A stretch of DNA of 64,000 nucleotides from contig NZ_CP017886.1 in assembly GCF_001874645.1 (NCBI RefSeq), positions 1,488,001 to 1,552,000 on the forward strand, given 5' to 3'. This DNA is from Pseudomonas frederiksbergensis. GTDB lineage: Bacteria > Pseudomonadota > Gammaproteobacteria > Pseudomonadales > Pseudomonadaceae. Shown here in pieces: positions 4,917 to 45,196 of the stretch (positions within the stretch are counted from its first letter, which is position 1; each line of letters opens with the position of its first letter). Under the pieces are notes generated by a model. The model saw only the letters and a list, made by a program, of their open reading frames with translations. It had not been told where the DNA came from and did not search any database. Both the position numbers and the translations under genes were made by a program.

Positions 4917-6260
4917 TCAGACGCGGTCCAGGCGTCCACTCAGGCGTTTGGCAGCGTACATGGCCTCATCCGCATGCTTGAACAATTGCTTTTCTTCGCT
5001 GCCATGCTCGGGGTAAAGCGCGATGCCAATACTCGGCAGAATGTTCAGGCTGTGGCTGTCCAGGCGCATCGGCTGGCCGAGCACCTGACGGATTTTGATC
5101 GCCACACGGGCCGCGTCTTCGGCAGCCTGAATGCTGTCGAGCAGGACGACAAACTCATCACCGCCAATGCGCGCCACCGTATCGGACTCACGCACGCAGC
5201 CTTGAAGTCGATTGGCCACCGCTTGCAGCAACATGTCGCCGACGCCATGGCCATAGGTGTCGTTGACCTGTTTGAAGTGGTCCAGGTCGACGTACAGCAG
5301 TGCCATGCGCCCCGACTCTTTTCTGGCTTTACCGAGAGCGGCCAACAGGCGTTCACGCAGCAGTTCGCGATTGGGCAATCGGGTCAAGTGATCGTGCTGC
5401 GCCATGAATTGCAGCCGGCTGTGCAATTGCTTGCGCTCAATGGCCGCCGCGACCTGGGCGCAGACGTATTGCAGCAGCTCCTTGTCACGCTCGGTATAGT
5501 GTTCGCCACCGGGTACGCTTTTGACGATCAGCGCACCGATGGTGCCTTTTTGTGAGTTCAGCGGCACGCCCAGCCAGCAGGGTGAATCCTGGTCATTGAC
5601 GACCTCGCACAGTCCGGGCATCGAGACAGGTTGGTCAGGCGTTACCAGAACCGGCTGCCCCGTGCGAATCACCTCGGCGCAGAGCCGGCCGGTAACGCTG
5701 AACAGCGGATCGTGCTCGTGATCATCGACGTGGTACGGGAAATTCAATTGTTCGCAGTGCTCGTCATAGAGCGCCACCGAAAAGTTCAACGCCGGTAACC
5801 ATTCGCCAATCAGTTGATGAACGAGCTTGAACAGCGCCAGCAGATCCTCAGCGGCATGGGCGGCTTCGGAGATCGCGTACAGTGCGGCCTGCCGGGATTC
5901 GGCCTGTTTGCGCTCGGTGATGTCACGGGCCACGGCGATGCGCAGTTGGTCGACTTCAGACCAACGCGCCGACCAGAGAAGATGCACCACCTGACCATCC
6001 TTGCGCAGGTAGCGGTTTTCAAAATTAGGGTTGGGCTGGCCGCGCATGATTTCTCGGGCGGCGTCCAGAGTCCGTTGGCGATCGGTCGGGTGGACCATCT
6101 CGATCATCGGCTGACCGATCAACTCGTCCGGGGTGTAACCGAACACTCGTTCGCAAGCGGCGCTGACAAAGACGAAGCGCCCTTGGCCATCGACCGCACA
6201 CACGACGTCGAGCAAAAGATCGATGTAGCTCGCCAGCGGCGCGGAATTTCTGGTGGTCAT
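4917..6260 (-). CDS. PAS-GAF-GGDEF diguanylate cyclase
   Basis: The 447-residue protein has an N-terminal PAS domain with PAC tail (residues about 8-125, ending VARDITERK), a GAF domain (about 135-270), and a C-terminal GGDEF domain (about 280-445). The active-site signature is RIGGDEFVVLL. An RESD lies five residues before GGDEF, which is a canonical inhibitory I-site for cyclic-di-GMP. No EAL domain follows, so it should synthesise c-di-GMP in response to an unknown signal. No membrane segment is visible, so it is probably cytoplasmic. It is transcribed alone. Confidence 0.93.
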   Translation of the reverse strand: MTTRNSAPLASYIDLLLDVVCAVDGQGRFVFVSAACERVFGYTPDELIGQPMIEMVHPTDRQRTLDAAREIMRGQPNPNFENRYLRKDGQVVHLLWSARWSEVDQLRIAVARDITERKQAESRQAALYAISEAAHAAEDLLALFKLVHQLIGEWLPALNFSVALYDEHCEQLNFPYHVDDHEHDPLFSVTGRLCAEVIRTGQPVLVTPDQPVSMPGLCEVVNDQDSPCWLGVPLNSQKGTIGALIVKSVPGGEHYTERDKELLQYVCAQVAAAIERKQLHSRLQFMAQHDHLTRLPNRELLRERLLAALGKARKESGRMALLYVDLDHFKQVNDTYGHGVGDMLLQAVANRLQGCVRESDTVARIGGDEFVVLLDSIQAAEDAARVAIKIRQVLGQPMRLDSHSLNILPSIGIALYPEHGSEEKQLFKHADEAMYAAKRLSGRLDRV

Positions 6261-6366
6261 CGTGGAAAGATACTGTCCAAAAGTACAGCTGTGAGTATCA
6301 ATCCCTGGACCGGGCCATCGCTAAAAAGGATGTCCTGATGCAGCTGTCGCAGCCCTGCGCGCAGCC

Positions 6367-7142: not shown

Positions 7143-7382
7143 ATGTCCGTCATGTCATTGCGTCTGCCAGACGAAATCGCCGACACCCTCGCCAATCTGG
7201 CTAAAGCGACAGGCCGCAGCAAATCTTTTCTCGCCGTAGATGCTCTACGTGAATACCTGGCTCGAGAAGCCTGGCAAATAGAGGAAATTCAACACGCCTT
7301 GAAAGAGGCTGACGCTGGAGACTTTGCCAGTGATGAAGAAGTAAACGCCCTCGCCAACAAGTGGGCCAGCAATGCGCGTTGA
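7143..7382 (+). CDS. Ribbon-helix-helix (CopG/ParD-like) antitoxin
   Basis: The 79-residue protein has an N-terminal ribbon-helix-helix fold (SVMSLRLPDEIADTLANLAKATGRSKSFLAVDALREYL). An acidic C-terminal tail (EEIQHALKEADAGDFASDEEVNALANKW) would wrap and neutralise the toxin. It overlaps the toxin gene by 11 bases, which implies coupled translation. It likely represses its own promoter through the dyad just upstream. Confidence 0.88.
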   Translation: MSVMSLRLPDEIADTLANLAKATGRSKSFLAVDALREYLAREAWQIEEIQHALKEADAGDFASDEEVNALANKWASNAR

Positions 7383-7656
7383 GTGGCTGAGAACCGCACT
7401 AAAAAATATTGATGACGAAGCCGCTTACATCGCGCTGGAAAACCCGAAAGCCGCCGCTGACTTCGTCAAAACCATCTTCGCCAGTGTCGACCACCTTGCC
7501 CAATTTCCTGCGATTGGCCGTGAAGGCCGTCTGCCCGGTACCCGAGAGTGGGTACTAACTGACCGCCCCTACCTCATCCCTTATCGTGTTCGCCAAGGGC
7601 GTCTTCAGGTTCTACGAGTGTTCCACACCCGCCGTCTACCACCCGGAGCATGCTAG
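7372..7656 (+). CDS. RelE/ParE family toxin
   Basis: The 94-residue protein has the ParE/RelE layout: a WLRTALKNIDDEAAYIALENPKAAADFVKTIFASVDHLAQFPAIGREGR helical start, then the beta strands REWVLTDRPYLIPYRV and LQVLRVFHTRR. ParE-like toxins attack gyrase and RelE-like ones cleave mRNA. The R-x-F-H-x-R end is shared, so I cannot tell which target applies. It is the second gene of a two-gene toxin-antitoxin operon. Confidence 0.87.
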   Translation: MRVEWLRTALKNIDDEAAYIALENPKAAADFVKTIFASVDHLAQFPAIGREGRLPGTREWVLTDRPYLIPYRVRQGRLQVLRVFHTRRLPPGAC

Positions 7657-7669
7657 GTCTCAACCTGTG

Positions 7670-8410
7670 TCATGAACCCTGCATTTCTTTCGGCACCACA
7701 TACTGCCGACCGTCATACCGCAGCGTCGTCAGTACCGTTTTCCCCACCGTATCGTTGTACTCACACTCGCCGTTTTTCACAGTATTCAGCGAGCCGGTGG
7801 TCACCGATTTGACGATCAGGTCAGCAAAACCATGGCTGCTGGTTTTGGCCATGTCCAAGGTGCGTTTGGTGCGCGAGAATTCGCCGGCACAGTTGGTATC
7901 CCACTCACCGCTACCGGATTCGATCACCAGTTGTTCCAGCACTGGGCGCAGTGTGTTGCCCTCGCGAACATACAGCGACAGCCAGGCCTCGTCGAAAGGA
8001 TTGGCCCGTGACGAGCCGGTGAAACCCGCACGCACACCGAATGCCCGCAGGTCGGAGGTGAGCTTGTAGCGCGCGGTGTCAATGCTCAGCCCATCGAACC
8101 GAAAGGCATCGGAGCTGAACACCGAGGCTTTGGAATAGCGGGCCAGCGGCTTGCCGTCGACGTTGGACACCACGGCCAGTTTCAAGTCGTACATCCCAGT
8201 GCCGGCAGGCTCATCGGTGAGGGTCGGATCCGGCTCGATCTGCGACAACGCGGTGATGGTCTGACCGTCGTAGGCCGGCCAGTCCTTGCACACCGAATAA
8301 CCCGGTACCCCCTCGGGCAACGGCGGTGTTCCACACTCTGCGTACGCCTGGGTCGCACCCAGCGCACCACTCATTGCTACACATCCCAGCCAGCTGTATT
8401 TCAAGGTCAT
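7670..8410 (-). CDS. Uncharacterised exported protein
   Basis: The 246-residue protein starts MTLKYSWLGCVAMSGALGA with cleavage predicted after AYA, so it is probably periplasmic. No family is recognised. Cysteines lie near both ends of the mature protein (ECGTPPLP, YSVCKDW, TNCAGEF, NGECEYN), which suggests disulfides. The start at 8410 is preferred because AAGGAA lies 7-12 bases upstream. A 15-codon upstream extension is open but lacks a ribosome site. It converges with the toxin-antitoxin operon. Confidence 0.7.
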   Translation of the reverse strand: MTLKYSWLGCVAMSGALGATQAYAECGTPPLPEGVPGYSVCKDWPAYDGQTITALSQIEPDPTLTDEPAGTGMYDLKLAVVSNVDGKPLARYSKASVFSSDAFRFDGLSIDTARYKLTSDLRAFGVRAGFTGSSRANPFDEAWLSLYVREGNTLRPVLEQLVIESGSGEWDTNCAGEFSRTKRTLDMAKTSSHGFADLIVKSVTTGSLNTVKNGECEYNDTVGKTVLTTLRYDGRQYVVPKEMQGS

Positions 8411-8504
8411 TCCCTGTTCCTTGCGAACGTCATCAATCGATAAAAAATCAGCCATGCACTATCGCCTGCCCGATCTGTCGATTCAACCCGTTCAATGCCG
8501 CCAT

Positions 8505-9653
8505 TCAAAACGCGCTACGAAAGATCTCCTCGATTTGCCGCTGATCCGCCGCCCGTGGATTGGTCAGGCCGCAGGCGTCTTTCAAGGCATTGGCGGCGAG
8601 GATCGGGATGTCTTGCAGCTTGGCGCCGAGGTCGCGCAAACCGCCGGGAATCTCCACATCCCTGGCCAACGTGCGGATCGCCACGATGGCCGCCTGGGCG
8701 CCCTCCTCCGGGCTGACACCACGGGTGTCAGCACCCAGAGCGCGCGCCACCACCGCCAGGCGTTCGGCGCAGACGGCGGCGTTGAAGCTCTGCACGTGCG
8801 GCAGCAGTACCGCGTTGCATACACCGTGAGGCAAGTCATAAAAGCCGCCCAACTGATGAGCCATCGCATGCACAAACCCCAACGAAGCATTGTTGAATGC
8901 CATGCCGGCGAGGAACTGCGCGTAGGCCATGTTTTCCCGGGCGATCATGTCGCTGCCGTCGCGCACGGCCAGGCGCAGATTGCGGCTGATCAGCTCGATG
9001 GCTTTCAGCGCACAAGCGTCGGTGATCGGATTGGCGGCCGTGGAGACGTAAGCTTCGATAGCGTGGGTCAAGGCGTCCATGCCGGTCGCTGCGGTGAGGC
9101 CTTTGGGCATCGCGGCCATCAGCGCCGGGTCGTTGACCGACAGCAGCGGCGTGACGTTGCGGTCGACGATGGCCATTTTTACGTGACGCGATTCGTCGGT
9201 GATGATGCAGAAACGGGTCATCTCGCTGGCAGTACCGGCCGTGGTATTGATCGCGATCAGCGGCAACTGCGGCTTGATAGATTGGTCGACGCCTTCGTAA
9301 TCCGCGATCTTGCCGCCGTTGGTGGCGCACAGGGCGATGCCTTTGGCACAGTCGTGGGGCGAGCCGCCGCCCAGGGAAATCACGCAATCACACTGGTTGC
9401 GCCGGAGCAGTTCCAGGCCGCTCTCGACGTTGGCAATGGTCGGGTTCGGTTTGGCACCCTCGAAAATTACCGAGTCGATGTCCTGCACCGCCAGTTTTTC
9501 CGCGATCAGGGTTGCCACGCCAGCCTTGGCCAATCCTGCGTCCGTCACGATCAAGGCCTTGCGAAAGCCATAGTTGCGAATGGCGGTCATGGCTTCGTCG
9601 AGGCAACCGATGCCCATGATGTTCACGGCGGGAATGAAAAACGTGCTGGTCAT
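8505..9653 (-). CDS. yiaY: Iron-containing alcohol dehydrogenase (YiaY/ErcA type)
   Basis: The 382-residue group III alcohol dehydrogenase has an N-terminal dinucleotide-binding part with [11 protein letters not shown] near residue 97. It has the iron-ADH signature with metal-binding His residues in [28 protein letters not shown] near residue 260. It should oxidise or reduce a short-chain alcohol/aldehyde or 3-hydroxy amino acid with NAD(H) and Fe2+. The yiaY symbol rests on overall similarity, and the substrate is unproven. The ATG at 9653 has AAGGA 6-7 bases upstream. Not in an operon. Confidence 0.82.
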
Positions 9654-9796
9654 GACCATTCCTTTTCGATAGGGCCGAACCGGCAACCCCGATTCAGCGG
9701 ATCCCCAAAGGATCGACCCATCCGTTACCGCGCATGTTGATCTGGCTCAACACCCGGTCGTGATAAAGTCTGCGCCCTGCACTCCACCTGCTTGAG

Positions 9797-10828
9797 ATGA
9801 CCGACGCGATGACCGATTTCCAGGAATTTGATGCCCGACTAGAAGACTGGAATGCGTTGCGCGCAACCACCCCGTTCAGCGGCCTGCTGGTGGGTAACGG
9901 CGCCAGCCGCGCGGTGTGGGATGACTTTGGTTACGACTCGCTGTTCGAGAACGCCCGCACGGTCGAAGAAAAGCCGTTGAGCCAGTCCGAGCTGAGCGTG
10001 TTCGACGCGATGCAAACCCGCAGCTTTGAACAAGTGCTGGGGGCGCTGAAAACCACCAGCCGGGTCAACAAGGCCTTGGCCGTGAGCTCCGCCGCACCAC
10101 GCAATCGCTACTACGCGATCAAGGAAGCACTGATCAACACCGTGCACACGGTGCACATCCCGTGGCGCCTGGTGCAAGCCGCAAGCCTGGCGGCGATCAA
10201 TCAGGAATTGAGCACGTATCCGACGGTGTTCACCACCAACTACGACCTGCTCAACTATTGGGCGATCCAGCACCAACCCGACGCTATCAGCGACCTGTTT
10301 CACGGCACCGAGCCGAGCTTCGACCTGAGTGCCAGCGCCGCTGACAAAACCCGCCTGCTTTACCTGCACGGCGGCCTGCACTTGGTGCGCAACCAAGACG
10401 GCACCGCACGCAAACTGACCTCGACCGAGGGCACGCTGCTGGGCAGTTTTGCAATCAACAACACGATCAAAACCCTCGACGATGTGCCGCTGTTCGTTAG
10501 CGAAGGCACCTCTGAAGACAAGCTCAAGACCATCCGCAGTTCGGATTACCTGTCGTTCTGCTACGACCAGTTACTGAGCCAGCACGACGCACTGTGCATC
10601 TTCGGCCACAGCCTGGGCAAGCAGGACAATCACATCATTCATGCGCTGCGCCAGGCGCAACCGAAGACCGTGGCGATCTCGATTTACCCGCGCAGCGCGG
10701 CGTTCATCCAGAGCCAGAAGCGGCATTACGCGAAGGTGTTTGAAGGAATCGGCGTGGAGCTACGGTTTTTTGATTCGAAGAGCCATGCGTTGGGTAGCCC
10801 CCAATTGACCGTTCCGGTCGAGGTCTGA
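9797..10828 (+). CDS. DUF4917 family SIR2-like protein
   Basis: The 343-residue soluble protein shows a SIR2-type NAD-binding pattern: LLVGNGASRAVWDDFGYDSLF (residues about 30-50, glycine loop), VFTTNYDLLNYWA (about 145), LYLHGGLHL (about 193), and IFGHSLGKQDNHII (about 275). The Asn-Tyr-Asp and His motifs correspond to the catalytic positions of SIR2-like NADases. SIR2-like domains occur in several anti-phage systems, where they destroy NAD+. No partner gene is adjacent, so a defence role here is only a hypothesis. An in-frame ATG at 9809 is an alternative start. Confidence 0.8.
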   Translation: MTDAMTDFQEFDARLEDWNALRATTPFSGLLVGNGASRAVWDDFGYDSLFENARTVEEKPLSQSELSVFDAMQTRSFEQVLGALKTTSRVNKALAVSSAAPRNRYYAIKEALINTVHTVHIPWRLVQAASLAAINQELSTYPTVFTTNYDLLNYWAIQHQPDAISDLFHGTEPSFDLSASAADKTRLLYLHGGLHLVRNQDGTARKLTSTEGTLLGSFAINNTIKTLDDVPLFVSEGTSEDKLKTIRSSDYLSFCYDQLLSQHDALCIFGHSLGKQDNHIIHALRQAQPKTVAISIYPRSAAFIQSQKRHYAKVFEGIGVELRFFDSKSHALGSPQLTVPVEV

Positions 10829-10848
10829 CGGATCGTTCCCCAATGTAT

Positions 10849-11193
10849 TCAAAACACCGGCAAGGTTTTGTCCTTGATCACCTTGGTCGGCCCGTTGGCC
10901 TTGACGCTGGCGATGCCTTTTTCCCGCGCAGCGTCGGAAGAATAAGCTTCACTGCTGCCGATGATCTGATGGTTGGCAGCCTTGAGGTTGAAATAAGGAT
11001 GGCCATCCTTGGTGGACTTTTTCTCGTAGCATTCATCCAGTGGGCTATTGGTCTGAACCGAGGCGATGCCGCTATCAGCGGCGCTGCGTGTGGTGTACAG
11101 CTCGCTGGTGAGAATGGTTTCGGCGTTGGCCGCTTTCAGCACAAAGCGAAATTGGCCATTGCTGCTTTTGCTCAACTCATACCATCCAGACAT
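10849..11193 (-). CDS. yegP: YegP family protein (two DUF1508 repeats)
   Basis: The 114-residue protein contains two tandem DUF1508 repeats, GWYELSKSSNGQFRFVLKAANAETILTSE and GHPYFNLKAANHQIIGSSEAY, each ending in a GIASV.aN segment. It is very close in plan to E. coli YegP. The function is unknown. The start at 11193 begins MSGWYEL as in the family, and a 14-codon upstream extension is unsupported. It converges with the DUF4917 gene. Confidence 0.92.
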   Translation of the reverse strand: MSGWYELSKSSNGQFRFVLKAANAETILTSELYTTRSAADSGIASVQTNSPLDECYEKKSTKDGHPYFNLKAANHQIIGSSEAYSSDAAREKGIASVKANGPTKVIKDKTLPVF

Positions 11194-40200: not shown

Positions 40201-40396
40201 TCTGGCCATTTCCACCGGCGCAGGTTCGGGTAGCCAACATGCGATCGGTACCGGGGTCATCGGCGGTATGCTGACCGCCACCGTACTGGCGATCTTCTGG
40301 GTCCCACTGTTCTTTGTCACCGTGTCGTCGATAGGTCAACGCAAGACTGCGGACCAGGATGACGCTATTGAAACTCCTAAAGAGGCTAGCCAATGA
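37232..40396 (+). CDS. emhB: RND efflux pump EmhB/TtgB (HAE1 family)
   Basis: The 1054-residue inner-membrane proton/drug antiporter starts [20 protein letters not shown]. Proton-relay acidic residues lie in [18 protein letters not shown] near residue 405, and the relay Lys in [17 protein letters not shown] near 945. Two large periplasmic loops are present. Length and motifs fit AcrB/TtgB. It exports solvents, aromatic hydrocarbons and antibiotics. GGGGAG precedes the start, 3 bases after emhA ends. Its stop overlaps emhC by 4 bases. Confidence 0.95.
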
Positions 40397-41853
40397 GCAA
40401 GTCGCTACTCTCCCTAGCCATCGCCGCGTTCGTGCTCGGTGGCTGCTCGCTGATACCGGATTATCAGCAGCCTGCCGCACCGATTGCGCCGCAATACCCA
40501 CAAGGTCCGGCGTACTCACCGGCCCAGGCCGCAAGCCAGGCAGCCGCCGAACAAGGCTGGAAGCAGTTTTTCCATGACCCGGCGCTGCAACAGCTGATCC
40601 AGACCGCTCTGGAGAACAACCGCGACCTGCGTGTCGCGGCACTGAACATCGACGCTTTTGCGGCTCAATACCGCATCTCGCGCGCCGACTTGTTCCCGGC
40701 CGTCTCGGCGACCGGCACCGGCAGCCGTCAGCGGGTTCCGGCGCGAGCCTCGCAGACTGGCAAAGCGGGTATCAGCAGTTCCTATTCGGCCACCGTGGGC
40801 GTCAGCGCCTATGAGCTCGACCTGTTCGGTCGGGTTCGCAGCCTGAACGAACAAGCGCTGCAATCGTACTTCGCCACTGAAGAAGCGCGCCGCAGTACCC
40901 AGATCAGCCTGGTGGCCAGTGTGGCCAACGCCTACCTGACTTGGCAGGCCGACAAGGAACAGCTGAAACTGTCCCAGGACACCCTGGCCGCCTTCGAAGA
41001 AAGCTACCGGCTCACCGCCCGGAGCAACGAAGTCGGCGTGGCGTCGGCGCTGGACCTGAGCCAGTCGCGTACGTCCGTGGAGACCGCCAAGGTACAACAG
41101 GCGAAATTCACTCGCCTGGTTGCCCAGGATGAAAACAACCTGGCACTGCTGTTGGGCACCGGTGTACCGGCCAACCTGGCAGCGGGCCAGCCGTTGTCCG
41201 ATGACCTGCTCAGCGAAGTACCGGCCGGTCTGCCGTCTGACCTGCTGCAACGTCGCCCGGACATCCTTGAAGCCGAACACAAGCTCAAGGCCGCCAACGC
41301 CAACATCGGCGCAGCGCGGGCGGCGTTCTTCCCGAGCATCAGCCTGACCGCCAATGCCGGCACCCTGAGCCCGGACCTTTCCGGTCTGTTCAAGGGCGGT
41401 TCAGGGACCTGGTTGTTCCAGCCACAAATCAACCTGCCGATCTTCAATGCCGGCTCTCTGAGCGCCAGCCTGGATTATTCGAAAATCCAGAAAGACATCA
41501 CGATCGCGCAGTACGAGAAGTCGATTCAGACAGCCTTTCAGGAAGTCTCCGACGGCCTCGCCGCACGCCTGACCTTCAACGAACAGTTGCAGGCCCAGCG
41601 TGATCTGGTGGCCGCCAACCAGAATTACTACCGCCTGGCCGAGCGTCGCTACCGCATCGGTGTCGACAGCAACCTGACCTTCCTCGACGCCCAGCGTCAG
41701 TTGTTCAGCGCGCAGCAATCGCTGATCACCGACCGCCTGTCGCAACTGGTCAGTGAAGTGAACCTGTATAAGGCTCTGGGTGGTGGCTGGAACGCGCAAA
41801 CCGCAAAGAACGAGCCGGTGAAAGAAGAAGCACCGAAACTGAAGATGTTCTGA
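40393..41853 (+). CDS. emhC: Outer-membrane efflux channel EmhC/TtgC (OprM family)
   Basis: The 486-residue lipoprotein has the lipobox VLGG-C at residues 13-17 and two OEP repeats ([38 protein letters not shown]-like [25 protein letters not shown]). [24 protein letters not shown] is also typical of OprM/TtgC. It forms the trimeric exit duct. The ATGA overlap with emhB and a terminator after it close the operon. Confidence 0.94.
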
Positions 41854-41909: not shown

Positions 41910-42016
41910 GTTGTCCATAAAAAAGCTGGCGACTCGCTTTCACCGGTGATGAAGCCAACAGCGGGTTTTGTCGCACAGCCGCCGGGGCATGTGCAGAAAC
42001 TCGCGCCTCCCTGGCA

Positions 42017-43177
42017 TCAACCGGTCATACCCAGCAAGCGTGCAGCCCCCTCCGCAGTTCCCGATATCGCCAACAGCCCGGCGTGGTGACTTTCCAGCCC
42101 TCTGACCTCTTTGGCCAGGTTTTCCAGAAGCTGACGTCCTTGAGGTGTGAAATCCGTGCTGGCTTCAAAATCCGGCAACGCCTTGATCAAGCCTTGCAGG
42201 ATGAACACCAGACGGTTTTGCGCCCGTTGCAGTTCATGCGACGAGCGTGAGCGAACCCGTCCCAGGTATTTGACCAATGCGACGCACACGAAAAACTCAT
42301 GGAAATAGCCATGAAAATCACGTGCCTGCCCCGACCACGGCAAAGTGAACAACACCTCCCGCGAGGTCTCATCCTTGACGACTGGGCACACTTCGACAAT
42401 GTTGTAGAGCAATTGATGGGTGGCCTCATGCACCAGCGACTCTTCCAGGTCGAGTATCGAATCATCCCGGTTCGATATGAAGATGATCCCGATGAAGCGC
42501 GACGCCGAACAGCTTCGAAATGAACCATCGGGCAAATAACAAATGGACTTGACCAGTTTTCTAAACTGTTCGCGACAGGCGGGCCACGTGTGTTCTATCC
42601 GCAATAGCGCAATATTCACCACGTCGCAAAAGAAATTCACGGAATGACCATTACGCTCCAATTGTTTGCGGGTCGCTTCATCTTTCGGAAACTCATAACT
42701 GGGCGGCGCCACTCTCGCCACCAGCGGATCGACATCAAACCGATACACAGGGGGGCAATAATCGTTCGTGCGAACACTGTCGGTTGTTTTCACCCGCGCC
42801 AGCATCTGTGGAAACCCGATCAGCATTTTCTCTAACGCATCCGTATCAGCAACCTTTTTCGTGATGACCCGATGGGCATAATGAGCGGTCAATACATTCC
42901 ACACTTGAAACACCGGATCATTAATAATCAAACGCTGCTCACGGGTCGGAGGCACGATAAGATTAAACGCTTGCTCGAAAAACTCCGCCAACTGCGGAGC
43001 ATTGGGAAACCGTTGAAAAAGTTCGGTGTACAGCGCGTCAAAGCGCGTGTAGCGATTCCGACTGACACGCTCCAGCAATACCTCAAATCGTGAAAGCTCC
43101 GCATCCGGCAGGAATGTCGTGCCCTGAAATAACTCGTCATCGGATAGCTCACGCAGACCACTGTTCCCGATATCCAT
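42017..43177 (-). CDS. HExxH motif protein of the peptide-modification (aKG-HExxH-like) type
   Basis: The 386-residue cytoplasmic protein has the metal-binding motif HEATH in LDLEESLVHEATHQLLYNI near residue 243. About 30 residues later comes TLPWSGQARDFHGYFHEFFVCVALVKYLG, where RDFHGYFHEFFV matches the conserved block after HExxH in the TIGR04267-like 'HEXXH motif putative peptide modification' family. Members of that family are linked to RiPP maturation as 2-oxoglutarate-dependent hydroxylases. The start at 43177 has AAGGGAAGG upstream; an in-frame ATG at 43303 lacks good spacing. Two tiny ORFs precede it on the same strand. No transporter or protease gene is adjacent. Confidence 0.75.
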   Translation of the reverse strand: MDIGNSGLRELSDDELFQGTTFLPDAELSRFEVLLERVSRNRYTRFDALYTELFQRFPNAPQLAEFFEQAFNLIVPPTREQRLIINDPVFQVWNVLTAHYAHRVITKKVADTDALEKMLIGFPQMLARVKTTDSVRTNDYCPPVYRFDVDPLVARVAPPSYEFPKDEATRKQLERNGHSVNFFCDVVNIALLRIEHTWPACREQFRKLVKSICYLPDGSFRSCSASRFIGIIFISNRDDSILDLEESLVHEATHQLLYNIVEVCPVVKDETSREVLFTLPWSGQARDFHGYFHEFFVCVALVKYLGRVRSRSSHELQRAQNRLVFILQGLIKALPDFEASTDFTPQGRQLLENLAKEVRGLESHHAGLLAISGTAEGAARLLGMTG

Positions 43178-43241
43178 TTTGCAACCTTCCCTTAAGCTGA
43201 CGGCAACGGCTTCGCCATCGTCAGACTGGCGATGCCATACC

Positions 43242-43310
43242 CTAATTGTTCGTAAAGACGACGCACCCAAGAACCGAGGCCAAACATTCCTGATTGACTT
43301 CATGACTCAT
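43242..43310 (-). CDS. Micro-ORF, 22 residues, candidate modified-peptide precursor
   Basis: The ORF reads MSHEVNQECLAS, then VLGCVV and FTNN, with two Cys. AAGGAG lies exactly 7 bases before the ATG, one of the best ribosome sites nearby, while the overlapping ATG at 43303 is poorly placed. It ends 64 bases before the HExxH gene, on the same strand. It could be a very short RiPP precursor, a leader peptide controlling translation, or chance. Confidence 0.35.
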   Translation of the reverse strand: MSHEVNQECLASVLGCVVFTNN

Positions 43311-43324
43311 TAAACTTCTCCTTG

Positions 43325-43366
43325 TTATTTCGGCATGACGAAAAACGTACCCCCCTGACGAAGCAT
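43325..43366 (-). CDS. Micro-ORF, 13 residues, upstream of the HExxH gene
   Basis: The ORF reads MLRQGGTFFVMPK. AAAAGGA ends 7 bases before the ATG, the same spacing as for the next micro-ORF. Its stop lies 14 bases before the start of that ORF, so both would be on one transcript with the HExxH gene. At this length coding status cannot be judged from sequence alone. Confidence 0.28.
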   Translation of the reverse strand: MLRQGGTFFVMPK

Positions 43367-43933
43367 GAAACTTTCCTTTTCCCGCCCTGAGGACCTTGAA
43401 TATAGCAAGACCCCTGCTCTTTTCCAGCCATGCCCAGGGTTCCCTTTAAACCGTTTCACGATAATCGACAACACCGATTCTTAAGGTTAACTGGCAATTA
43501 TCGATCGCCGCCTAATAACAGAAACAACCATAGGAAACCTCTTACAACCAAAGTAATAAACACTTCTATTTACTATCAACCAACAGAACACATGCGCCAT
43601 TAATAGAACGCGACGCCGCCCCCCCACCATTGCCCCGGATAACCAGTGATTTTAATTAACAATGTTCCATGCATCAGCAGCCCGACCGTCGTCGATTAGT
43701 GTTCGCTGATCGCCCAAAAACCCGTCTCCCCGATTGAACCCCCTCATCGATCCCCCGCACCATTCCCCCGCACCGACAAGAACCAATAACAACAGGTCCG
43801 ACACCATGACTGCGTGCCCTACCCGCTCCGGCTGACCTCGCCCCTTCGCTTTATTCGAATTCGATTTTTTGTCTGCAACCCTGGTTGCGGCTGTGTCCTG
43901 CTTCATCCCTAACAATTAGAGAGACCTGACTTC
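43367..43933. other. Long AT-richer intergenic region upstream of the HExxH unit and the OprD gene
   Basis: These 567 bases are the divergent control region of the HExxH unit (minus) and the porin (plus). I see no gene of ordinary length that I can support. A CGATAATCG motif at 43459-43467 equals the core of the PcaR-like sites at 54672 and 56222, and a C-run lies at 43616-43625. Composition is more AT-rich than the flanks between 43480 and 43610. Confidence 0.4.
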
Positions 43934-45196
43934 ATGAAGCCTTCCACCTGTGCAAAACAGCTTTTTCCGACTCTATTGACCACCGCACTGGTCAGCGCGG
44001 CCCTGCCGGCCATGGCCGCTGAGTCAGGTTTTCTGGAGGACGCCAGCGCCAACCTGAACCTGCGCAACTTCTACTTCAACCGCAACTTCACCAACCCGAC
44101 CCATGCGCAACACACGCAGGCAGAATGGACGCAAAGCTTCATCCTCGATGCCAAATCCGGGTTCACCCAAGGCACCGTCGGTTTTGGTCTGGATGTGCTG
44201 GGGCTGTATTCGGTCAAGCTCGATGGTGGGCGTGGTACCGGTGGTACGCAGTTGCTGCCGCTGGACGGTGACGGGGAACCCGCGAGCAACTTCGGGCGCC
44301 TGGACGTGGCCTTCAAGGCGAGGATTTCCAAGACTGAACTGAAGGTCGGCGAATGGATGCCGGTGCTGCCGATCCTGCGCTCTGACGATGGTCGCTCGCT
44401 GCCGCAAACCTTTCGTGGCGGGCAGATCACCTCGAAGGAAATCGACGGCCTGACGCTTTACGGTGGCCAGTTCCAGAACAACAGCCCACGCAACGACTCG
44501 AGCATGACCGCCATGTTCATGAACGGTAAACCGGGCATCACTTCCGACCGTTTCAACTTCCAGGGCGGCGAATACACCTTCAACGACAAGCGCAGCATGA
44601 TCGGGTTGTGGAACGCCCAACTCAAGGACATCTACAGTCAGCAGTTCATCAACCTGGTCCACACCCAGCCATTGGGTGACTGGACCCTCGGTGCCAACCT
44701 GGGCTTTTTCTATGGCAAGGAAGATGGCAGCGCGCGGGCCGGCGACCTCGATAACAAAACCTGGTCCGGGTTGTTCTCGGCCAAATATGGCGGCAACACG
44801 TTCTATGTCGGCTTGCAGAAACTCACCGGCGACAGTGCCTGGATGCGGGTCAACGGCACCAGCGGCGGGACGCTGGCCAACGACAGTTACAACTCAAGCT
44901 ACGACAACGCCCAGGAGAAATCCTGGCAACTGCGCCACGACTACAACTTCGCCGCCGCAGGCATTCCCGGCCTGACCCTGATGAACCGCTACATCAGCGG
45001 CGATAACGTACACACCGGGACCATCACCAACGGCAAGGAATGGGGGCGCGAGAGCGAAATCGGCTACACCGTGCAAAGCGGCAGCCTGAAAAGCCTCAAC
45101 GTCAGGTGGCGTAACTCGAGCATGCGTCGGGATTACAGCAACAACGAATTCGACGAAAACCGCCTGATCGTCAGCTATCCAATCAACCTGCTCTGA
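43934..45196 (+). CDS. OprD family outer-membrane porin
   Basis: The 420-residue protein has a signal peptide (to about residue 28, AMAAES). It then has the OprD signature opening GFLEDASANLNLRNFYFNRNF, a QSFILDAKSGFTQGTVGFGLDVLG strand, and a C-terminal ENRLIVSYPINLL. OprD-family channels take up amino acids or small aromatic and organic acids. Closeness to the pca cluster suggests an aromatic acid, but the substrate is not readable. A GAGAG site precedes the ATG. Confidence 0.9.
   Translation: MKPSTCAKQLFPTLLTTALVSAALPAMAAESGFLEDASANLNLRNFYFNRNFTNPTHAQHTQAEWTQSFILDAKSGFTQGTVGFGLDVLGLYSVKLDGGRGTGGTQLLPLDGDGEPASNFGRLDVAFKARISKTELKVGEWMPVLPILRSDDGRSLPQTFRGGQITSKEIDGLTLYGGQFQNNSPRNDSSMTAMFMNGKPGITSDRFNFQGGEYTFNDKRSMIGLWNAQLKDIYSQQFINLVHTQPLGDWTLGANLGFFYGKEDGSARAGDLDNKTWSGLFSAKYGGNTFYVGLQKLTGDSAWMRVNGTSGGTLANDSYNSSYDNAQEKSWQLRHDYNFAAAGIPGLTLMNRYISGDNVHTGTITNGKEWGRESEIGYTVQSGSLKSLNVRWRNSSMRRDYSNNEFDENRLIVSYPINLL

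Follow-up and report, generated by a model that had tools for sequence, protein, structure and literature searches.

The question raised by this locus is whether an enzyme of the HExxH type, encoded behind two micro-ORFs with strong ribosome sites and apart from the usual partners, represents a minimal peptide-modification unit or something more familiar. The locus lies in the window, by which we mean the whole stretch of 64,000 nucleotides analyzed here. We conclude with high confidence that it is what deletions have left of a pfl/pos (Os1348-type) RiPP cluster, and that the micro-ORFs are by-products. The features considered are as follows.

40393..41853, plus strand: EmhC/OprM-like outer-membrane factor, conserved flank, collinear in relatives
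41934..41960, minus strand: MNIO-nitroreductase remnant 2, 27 bp, at 85-89% identity with locus positions 7887-7913 of L002, L007 and L010
41961..42005, minus strand: MNIO-nitroreductase remnant 1, 45 bp (REFLHMPRRLCDKTR), 87-93% identical to the interior of the gene in L002, L007 and L010
42017..43177, minus strand: aKG-HExxH enzyme gene, PosC/PflC homologue, 386 aa, intact
43192..43267, minus strand: GNAT-gene remnant, last 24 codons and stop (VRRLYEQLGYGIASLTMAKPLPSA); the same sequence ends GNAT in relatives
43242..43310, minus strand: micro-ORF 2, from ATG, 22 aa (MSHEVNQECLASVLGCVVFTNN), precursor stub plus 7-8 out-of-frame GNAT codons
43268..43310, minus strand: precursor-gene stub, family Os1348/PosA/PflA: the ATG and some 14-15 codons (MSHEVNQECLASVLG)
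43318..43323, minus strand: AAGGAG, ribosome site of the lost precursor gene, kept in the window and in 19 of 19 relatives
43325..43366, minus strand: micro-ORF 1, from ATG, 13 aa (MLRQGGTFFVMPK), a chance ORF in the 5' leader of the precursor, with neither frame nor length conserved
43399..43408, minus strand: candidate extended -10 promoter element of the precursor operon (TTGCTATATT), kept in the window and 19 relatives
43934..45196, plus strand: conserved flank on the other side, collinear in relatives, a porin that we take to be OprD-like

The Enzyme

The preliminary description had recognized an HExxH protein of the type associated with RiPP maturation, and this stands. The protein carries HEATH along with the block RDFHGYFHEFFV, and it matches NCBIfam TIGR04267 (E 5.6e-29, 101.4 bits, exceeding the curated cut-off of 40), while no Pfam family is matched at E <= 1. 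H250, E251 and H254 of the motif and the downstream H293 are all present, and are invariant in 44 aligned sequences (alignment A2, which took in 44 of the 65 proteins). The assignment as a homologue of the aKG-HExxH peptide hydroxylases is thus supported by these sequence comparisons. The gene starts with the ATG at 43177, a position at which all 20 of the relatives examined also have ATG, and runs to a stop codon ending at 42017; upstream, the frame stays open as far as an ATG at 43303. The good ribosome site claimed for this protein is confirmed, GGGAAGG ending 7 bases 5' of the ATG.

The RDFHGYFHEFFV block had been quoted as a family feature, and it is present, but one of its residues, E294, is found only in the window enzyme and in one other protein, P0002, among 50 sequences, nearly all others having A at this position, which adjoins the conserved H293. 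T229I has the same distribution. H289 is Tyr in close relatives, and H is also found in part of the sister clade described below.

A Complete Cluster in Related Genomes

In nine related Pseudomonas loci (L002-L010), the slot between the EmhC-like and OprD-like genes is occupied by a complete pfl/pos (“Os1348”) RiPP cluster, made of a precursor of 85-90 aa ending in ...QARMD, a GNAT, the aKG-HExxH enzyme and an MNIO-nitroreductase, all four full length in 9/9. The OprD-like flank is also present in all nine, and the EmhC-like flank is full in six and partly covered in L003, L005, and L006. All four genes are also matched in 11 four-kb relatives (L011-L020 and L023), the last gene being clipped by the locus end or matched partly. 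The cluster in L005, where TIGR03605 is also among the family matches, is an example:

5139-5396: precursor, 85 aa, NF038399 (‘Os1348 family NHLP clan protein’)
5510-5986: GNAT, PF00583
6001-7161: enzyme
7178-9145: MNIO-nitroreductase fusion, PF05114 and PF00881

Two further observations concern L005: the 3' end of its MNIO-nitroreductase gene is apparently duplicated downstream (8990-11185), and its EmhC-like gene is matched over only 15%. The locus may have been rearranged, or misjoined in assembly. Separately, the 396-aa metagenomic protein P0065 combines a UPF0276/MNIO domain (PF05114) with a match covering 27% of the enzyme (71% identity), and is possibly a fusion or deletion product of a pfl/pos-type cluster.

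Of the 398 Pseudomonas genomes surveyed, 21, including that of the window, carry the enzyme at E < 1e-100 (22 loci), and five more show weak partial matches only. Nine carrier loci also come from named Pseudomonas contigs; some of these and some loci of the genome set are probably from the same genomes, and so the relatives are not all independent.

The closest known systems are pos/OS3 of Pseudomonas sp. Os17 (Os1348-Os1351, PosA-PosD) and pfl of P. fluorescens CH267. The OS3 cluster is placed upstream of emhABC by PMC7726476, whose Table 1 is the source of the EmhABC naming used here for the outer-membrane-factor flank, and clusters of this type are also described as pos/pfl in PMC12636437. 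These share with the window the enzyme family and the place beside emhABC, and with the relatives of the window the gene order; unlike in pos/pfl, only scraps of the precursor, GNAT and MNIO-nitroreductase genes are found in the window. The enzyme of L018, 57% identical to the window enzyme, is inferred to be PosC, since its start coordinate is that of Os1350 (PMC7726476, Table 1). More distant are the HExxH domain of ChlB (PDB 8s5f, 20% sequence identity), described as a radical-SAM-linked hydroxylase with a cyclophane peptide substrate (PMC12636437), and SjiH (PDB 22ob, 16%). According to PMC12636437, PosC and PflC catalyze aKG/iron-dependent beta-hydroxylation on the Gln run of the precursor and the oxidative removal of ARMD to leave an amide, while PflD, the MNIO-nitroreductase, forms dehydro-Phe and hydroxy-Asp.

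Deletions and Remnants

The window is collinear with L007 except for deletions of about 729, 278, 391, and about 1,250 bp, the last of these falling in a stretch without further resolution; L002 and L010 place the first three breaks at the same sites. Break 1 (43268/43267), at which the L002, L007, and L010 loci jump from 5181 to 5911, takes out the precursor past codon 14-15 and the GNAT except for its last 24 codons. Break 2 (42006/42005) takes out the start of the MNIO-nitroreductase gene, and past the two short pieces of this gene the alignment picks up near the convergent EmhC-like gene. As judged by eye, the breaks have at most a few bases of shared sequence. The earlier remark that the usual partners are not adjacent needs correcting: scraps of three partner genes lie on either side of the enzyme gene.

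The missing functions have not moved elsewhere in the genome, as far as the searches reach. The precursor profile A1, with all candidates scored, gave no match at E <= 10 in the window's genome, and it matched four of four control genomes at 3.2e-39 or better (two of these, G108 and G061, had supplied rows of the profile, and the other two had not). Within the sensitivity of the profile, this genome has no second precursor. The GNAT of L005 matches the remnant only (residues 128-157 of 158, 73%), with no other match at E <= 0.001, and the only MNIO relative elsewhere in the genome is at 28%. Across the 398 genomes, with 13 first-look candidates scored per genome and all candidates scored for the window's genome and nine others, the precursor was found in 16 (17 loci), all of them among the 21 that bear the enzyme. 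The five genomes with the enzyme and without the precursor are that of the window, with HEATH intact, and G037, G044, G307, and G395, in which the motif is lost; an intact HExxH enzyme without a precursor is thus seen once in 398 genomes.

The Micro-ORFs and the Leader

The two micro-ORFs, of 13 and 22 residues, do each have a purine-rich site ending 7 bases 5' of the ATG, as described (AAAAGGA for micro-ORF 1, AAGGAG for micro-ORF 2). The window, both strands counted, contains 466 ORFs of 10-30 codons opening with ATG; only 16 of them (3.4%) have an upstream purine-rich word of the listed type, and so two consecutive ORFs with such sites exceed chance. For micro-ORF 2 the site is explained by its homology to the start of the precursor gene. 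The stub aligns with the precursor start in 19 relatives, matching six precursor N-termini at 9-11 of 15 residues; micro-ORF 2 reads MSHEVNQECLASVLG followed by CVVFTNN, and the precursor of L002 starts with MSNKVNQQTLASVVG. Thus micro-ORF 2 does occupy the place of a substrate gene, and its start and AAGGAG are kept in 19 of 19 relatives, as a conservation check had proposed, but they are kept because the full-length precursor starts there. Compared with the Os1348 family NHLP precursors (NF038399; PDB 6lk7), with whose first 14-15 codons it begins, nearly all of the leader peptide and the entire core are gone, and the frame is lost past the junction. Read in this way, micro-ORF 2 is a deletion scar, the precursor start being fused out of frame to the last 24 GNAT codons. 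In Os17, the place of AAGGAG is listed as a potential RsmA/E site (PMC7726476).

Micro-ORF 1 is situated between AAGGAG and the conserved TTGCTATATT, a probable extended -10 element that would be the promoter of the precursor operon. Its conservation was assessed by alignment column in 19 relatives, all of which keep the enzyme (L015, same in sequence as L006, was omitted from this leader alignment and count). The aligned triplet is a start codon in 14 (ATG in 11, GTG in one, TTG in two) and not in the other five, so that for this micro-ORF the same check fails. Of the 14, five have a 12-codon ORF (MLRQGVVFVMPK-like, one from TTG) ending at the same stop, five continue in frame into the precursor, and the remaining four have ORFs of 7, 14, 21, and 34 codons. 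Such a distribution is what small indels in an untranslated leader produce, although the five 12-codon cases are mildly contrary to it.

Selection on the Enzyme

With 14 of the 21 sequences of the start-codon comparison in the branch test, omega on the window branch was 0.27 versus a background of 0.21, not a significant rise (2dlnL 0.58), with a profile ranging from about 0.15 to 0.5. The other four tip branches tested gave 0.15, 0.29, 0.19, and 0.22, and the control branch L012, with a complete cluster, at 0.29 (2dlnL 1.99) was as high as that of the window. With an intact enzyme and no significant relaxation, either the loss happened recently or the protein still has a use. An omega of 1 along the whole branch, with other parameters held fixed, is 7.9 log units worse, so neutral drift over the whole branch is rejected, and a relic is compatible with this only if the loss was recent or the protein is in use. 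In a simple two-phase model, the deletion would fall no earlier than roughly the final third of the branch, if selection stopped then.

Residue changes were compared in 33 of the 65 proteins (without P0001, P0005, P0023, and P0037-P0065), four exact duplicates then being dropped. At sites uniform in eight relatives, six changes are common to the window enzyme and P0002 (N102H, T229I, Y289H, A294E, A360G, and L384M; H102 recurs in P0031), and six are found in the window enzyme only (L56R, L103R, E121G, A275V, K285A, and Y298C). At position 47 both proteins depart from the eight relatives, and not alike. P0002 (source lgn), 94% identical to the window enzyme, may be another orphan; the nearly invariant R286 is C in this protein. 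The changes in the two proteins may reflect reduced activity, altered substrate or drift.

A Sister Clade at lexA

A sister clade, 54-56% identical to the window enzyme, is encoded in a two-gene unit, an Os1348-family precursor and a HETTH enzyme, between lexA and an AstE/AspA-like gene (L021, L022/L040, L024, L025, and L036; positions 6055-6312 and 6516-7664 in L040). GNAT and MNIO-nitroreductase are unmatched at these units, in 16 kb of L040 and about 4 kb each of L021, L024, L025, and L036, and AstE has no match in the approximately 4-kb stretch of L025. The precursors end in FDQQQVRTD in four of five (L021, L022/L040, L024, and L025) and in FDQQRIRMD in L036, and so have V or I in place of the Ala at which ARMD is cleaved. 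As the A91V variant of the precursor was hydroxylated and uncleaved (PMC12636437), hydroxylation without cleavage is the predicted outcome at these units. L026, with a decayed precursor tail (DPQQARTN) and the motif HETTQ in its enzyme, apparently represents an intermediate state.

The homologues of the four genomes that have lost the motif (L027, L028, L029, and L030, in G044, G307, G395, and G037, respectively) are full length, with RETAH replacing HExxH, and with H293Q and C223G. L027, L028, and L030 adjoin lexA, which is unmatched in the 4 kb of L029. With all candidates scored, no precursor was found in these genomes; the best candidate (E 0.39) was a frame of 479 codons, which we took as chance. 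Omega in this clade is 0.167 versus 0.121 in the active clade, and omega 1 is rejected (2dlnL 288). Going by sequence and omega, these are conserved pseudo-enzymes under strong purifying selection, in which precursor loss and motif loss coincide and the protein is retained. The literature on aKG-HExxH pseudoenzymes in Pseudomonas, in a search not aimed at either, gave nothing on the two-gene unit or on the motif-less clade.

Weighing the Explanations

In the erosion scenario, about four deletions removed most of the precursor and GNAT genes and all but small pieces of the MNIO-nitroreductase gene. What remains is the leader with TTGCTATATT and its ribosome site, the 14-15 codon stub and the intact enzyme gene, which the old promoter would still drive through the stub. 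The enzyme would now have no RiPP substrate of its own, and would be a relic of recent date or else a protein retained for some other activity. The counterpoint to this scenario is that the gene is uninterrupted, without a significant rise in omega. The same constraint is what one would expect if the enzyme had been kept after pathway loss for another task, for instance peptidase or hydroxylase action on other proteins, or a role in binding. We consider this possible but unlikely: PflC is described as hydrolyzing a truncated, leaderless substrate (PMC12636437), four genomes keep a homologue with neither the HExxH motif nor a detectable precursor, and there are the six changes common with P0002, two of them restricted to this pair; however, the radical changes L56R, L103R, E121G, and Y298C, specific to the window, fit relaxation, the branch test does not distinguish recent loss from use, and the motif-less homologues form a separate clade, in which three of four members are at another locus, linked to lexA. 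It is the retention of the motif-less protein that earns the idea its minor share of probability. More generally, one may tentatively suppose that HExxH proteins of the PosC type serve a second purpose unconnected with RiPPs and can survive the loss of their pathway, and, jointly with this and with equal reserve, that two stages of such survival would be represented, one by an orphan with an intact motif (the window, perhaps the P0002 lineage), and the other, in another clade, by a motif-less protein under purifying selection.

The proposals that the enzyme and a very short substrate make up a minimal unit, or that the enzyme is regulated through translation of a micro-ORF, have become very improbable. 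Both micro-ORFs have good ribosome sites, translation of the stub could perhaps couple to the enzyme 64 bases downstream, and the 12-codon version of micro-ORF 1 recurs in a minority of relatives; but micro-ORF 2 is a junction lacking a core peptide, the frame of micro-ORF 1 is not conserved, and, in PMC12636437, PflC showed no hydroxylation on substrates without the N-terminal part, and the targets of these enzymes are Gln and Ala close to the precursor C-terminus. An artefact of assembly or sequencing, with the strain in fact possessing the complete cluster, is scarcely credible, as the site is inside one 5.7-Mb contig of a two-contig genome, there are several separate breaks with diverged remnants between them, and the rest of the genome offers neither a precursor nor more than the GNAT remnant and the distant MNIO relative.

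In conclusion, the locus is ordinary in kind: a RiPP cluster of a published type that has decayed, leaving an orphaned and apparently intact enzyme. Deletion scars can yield a convincing reading of ‘micro-ORF plus enzyme,’ and for orphan RiPP enzymes syntenic loci should be compared before a new minimal system is proposed. With a natural precursor-less PosC homologue and a conserved motif-less clade at hand, the question of a precursor-free function becomes directly testable, and the motif-less clade, a by-product of this analysis, is more surprising and worth more than the finding in the window itself.
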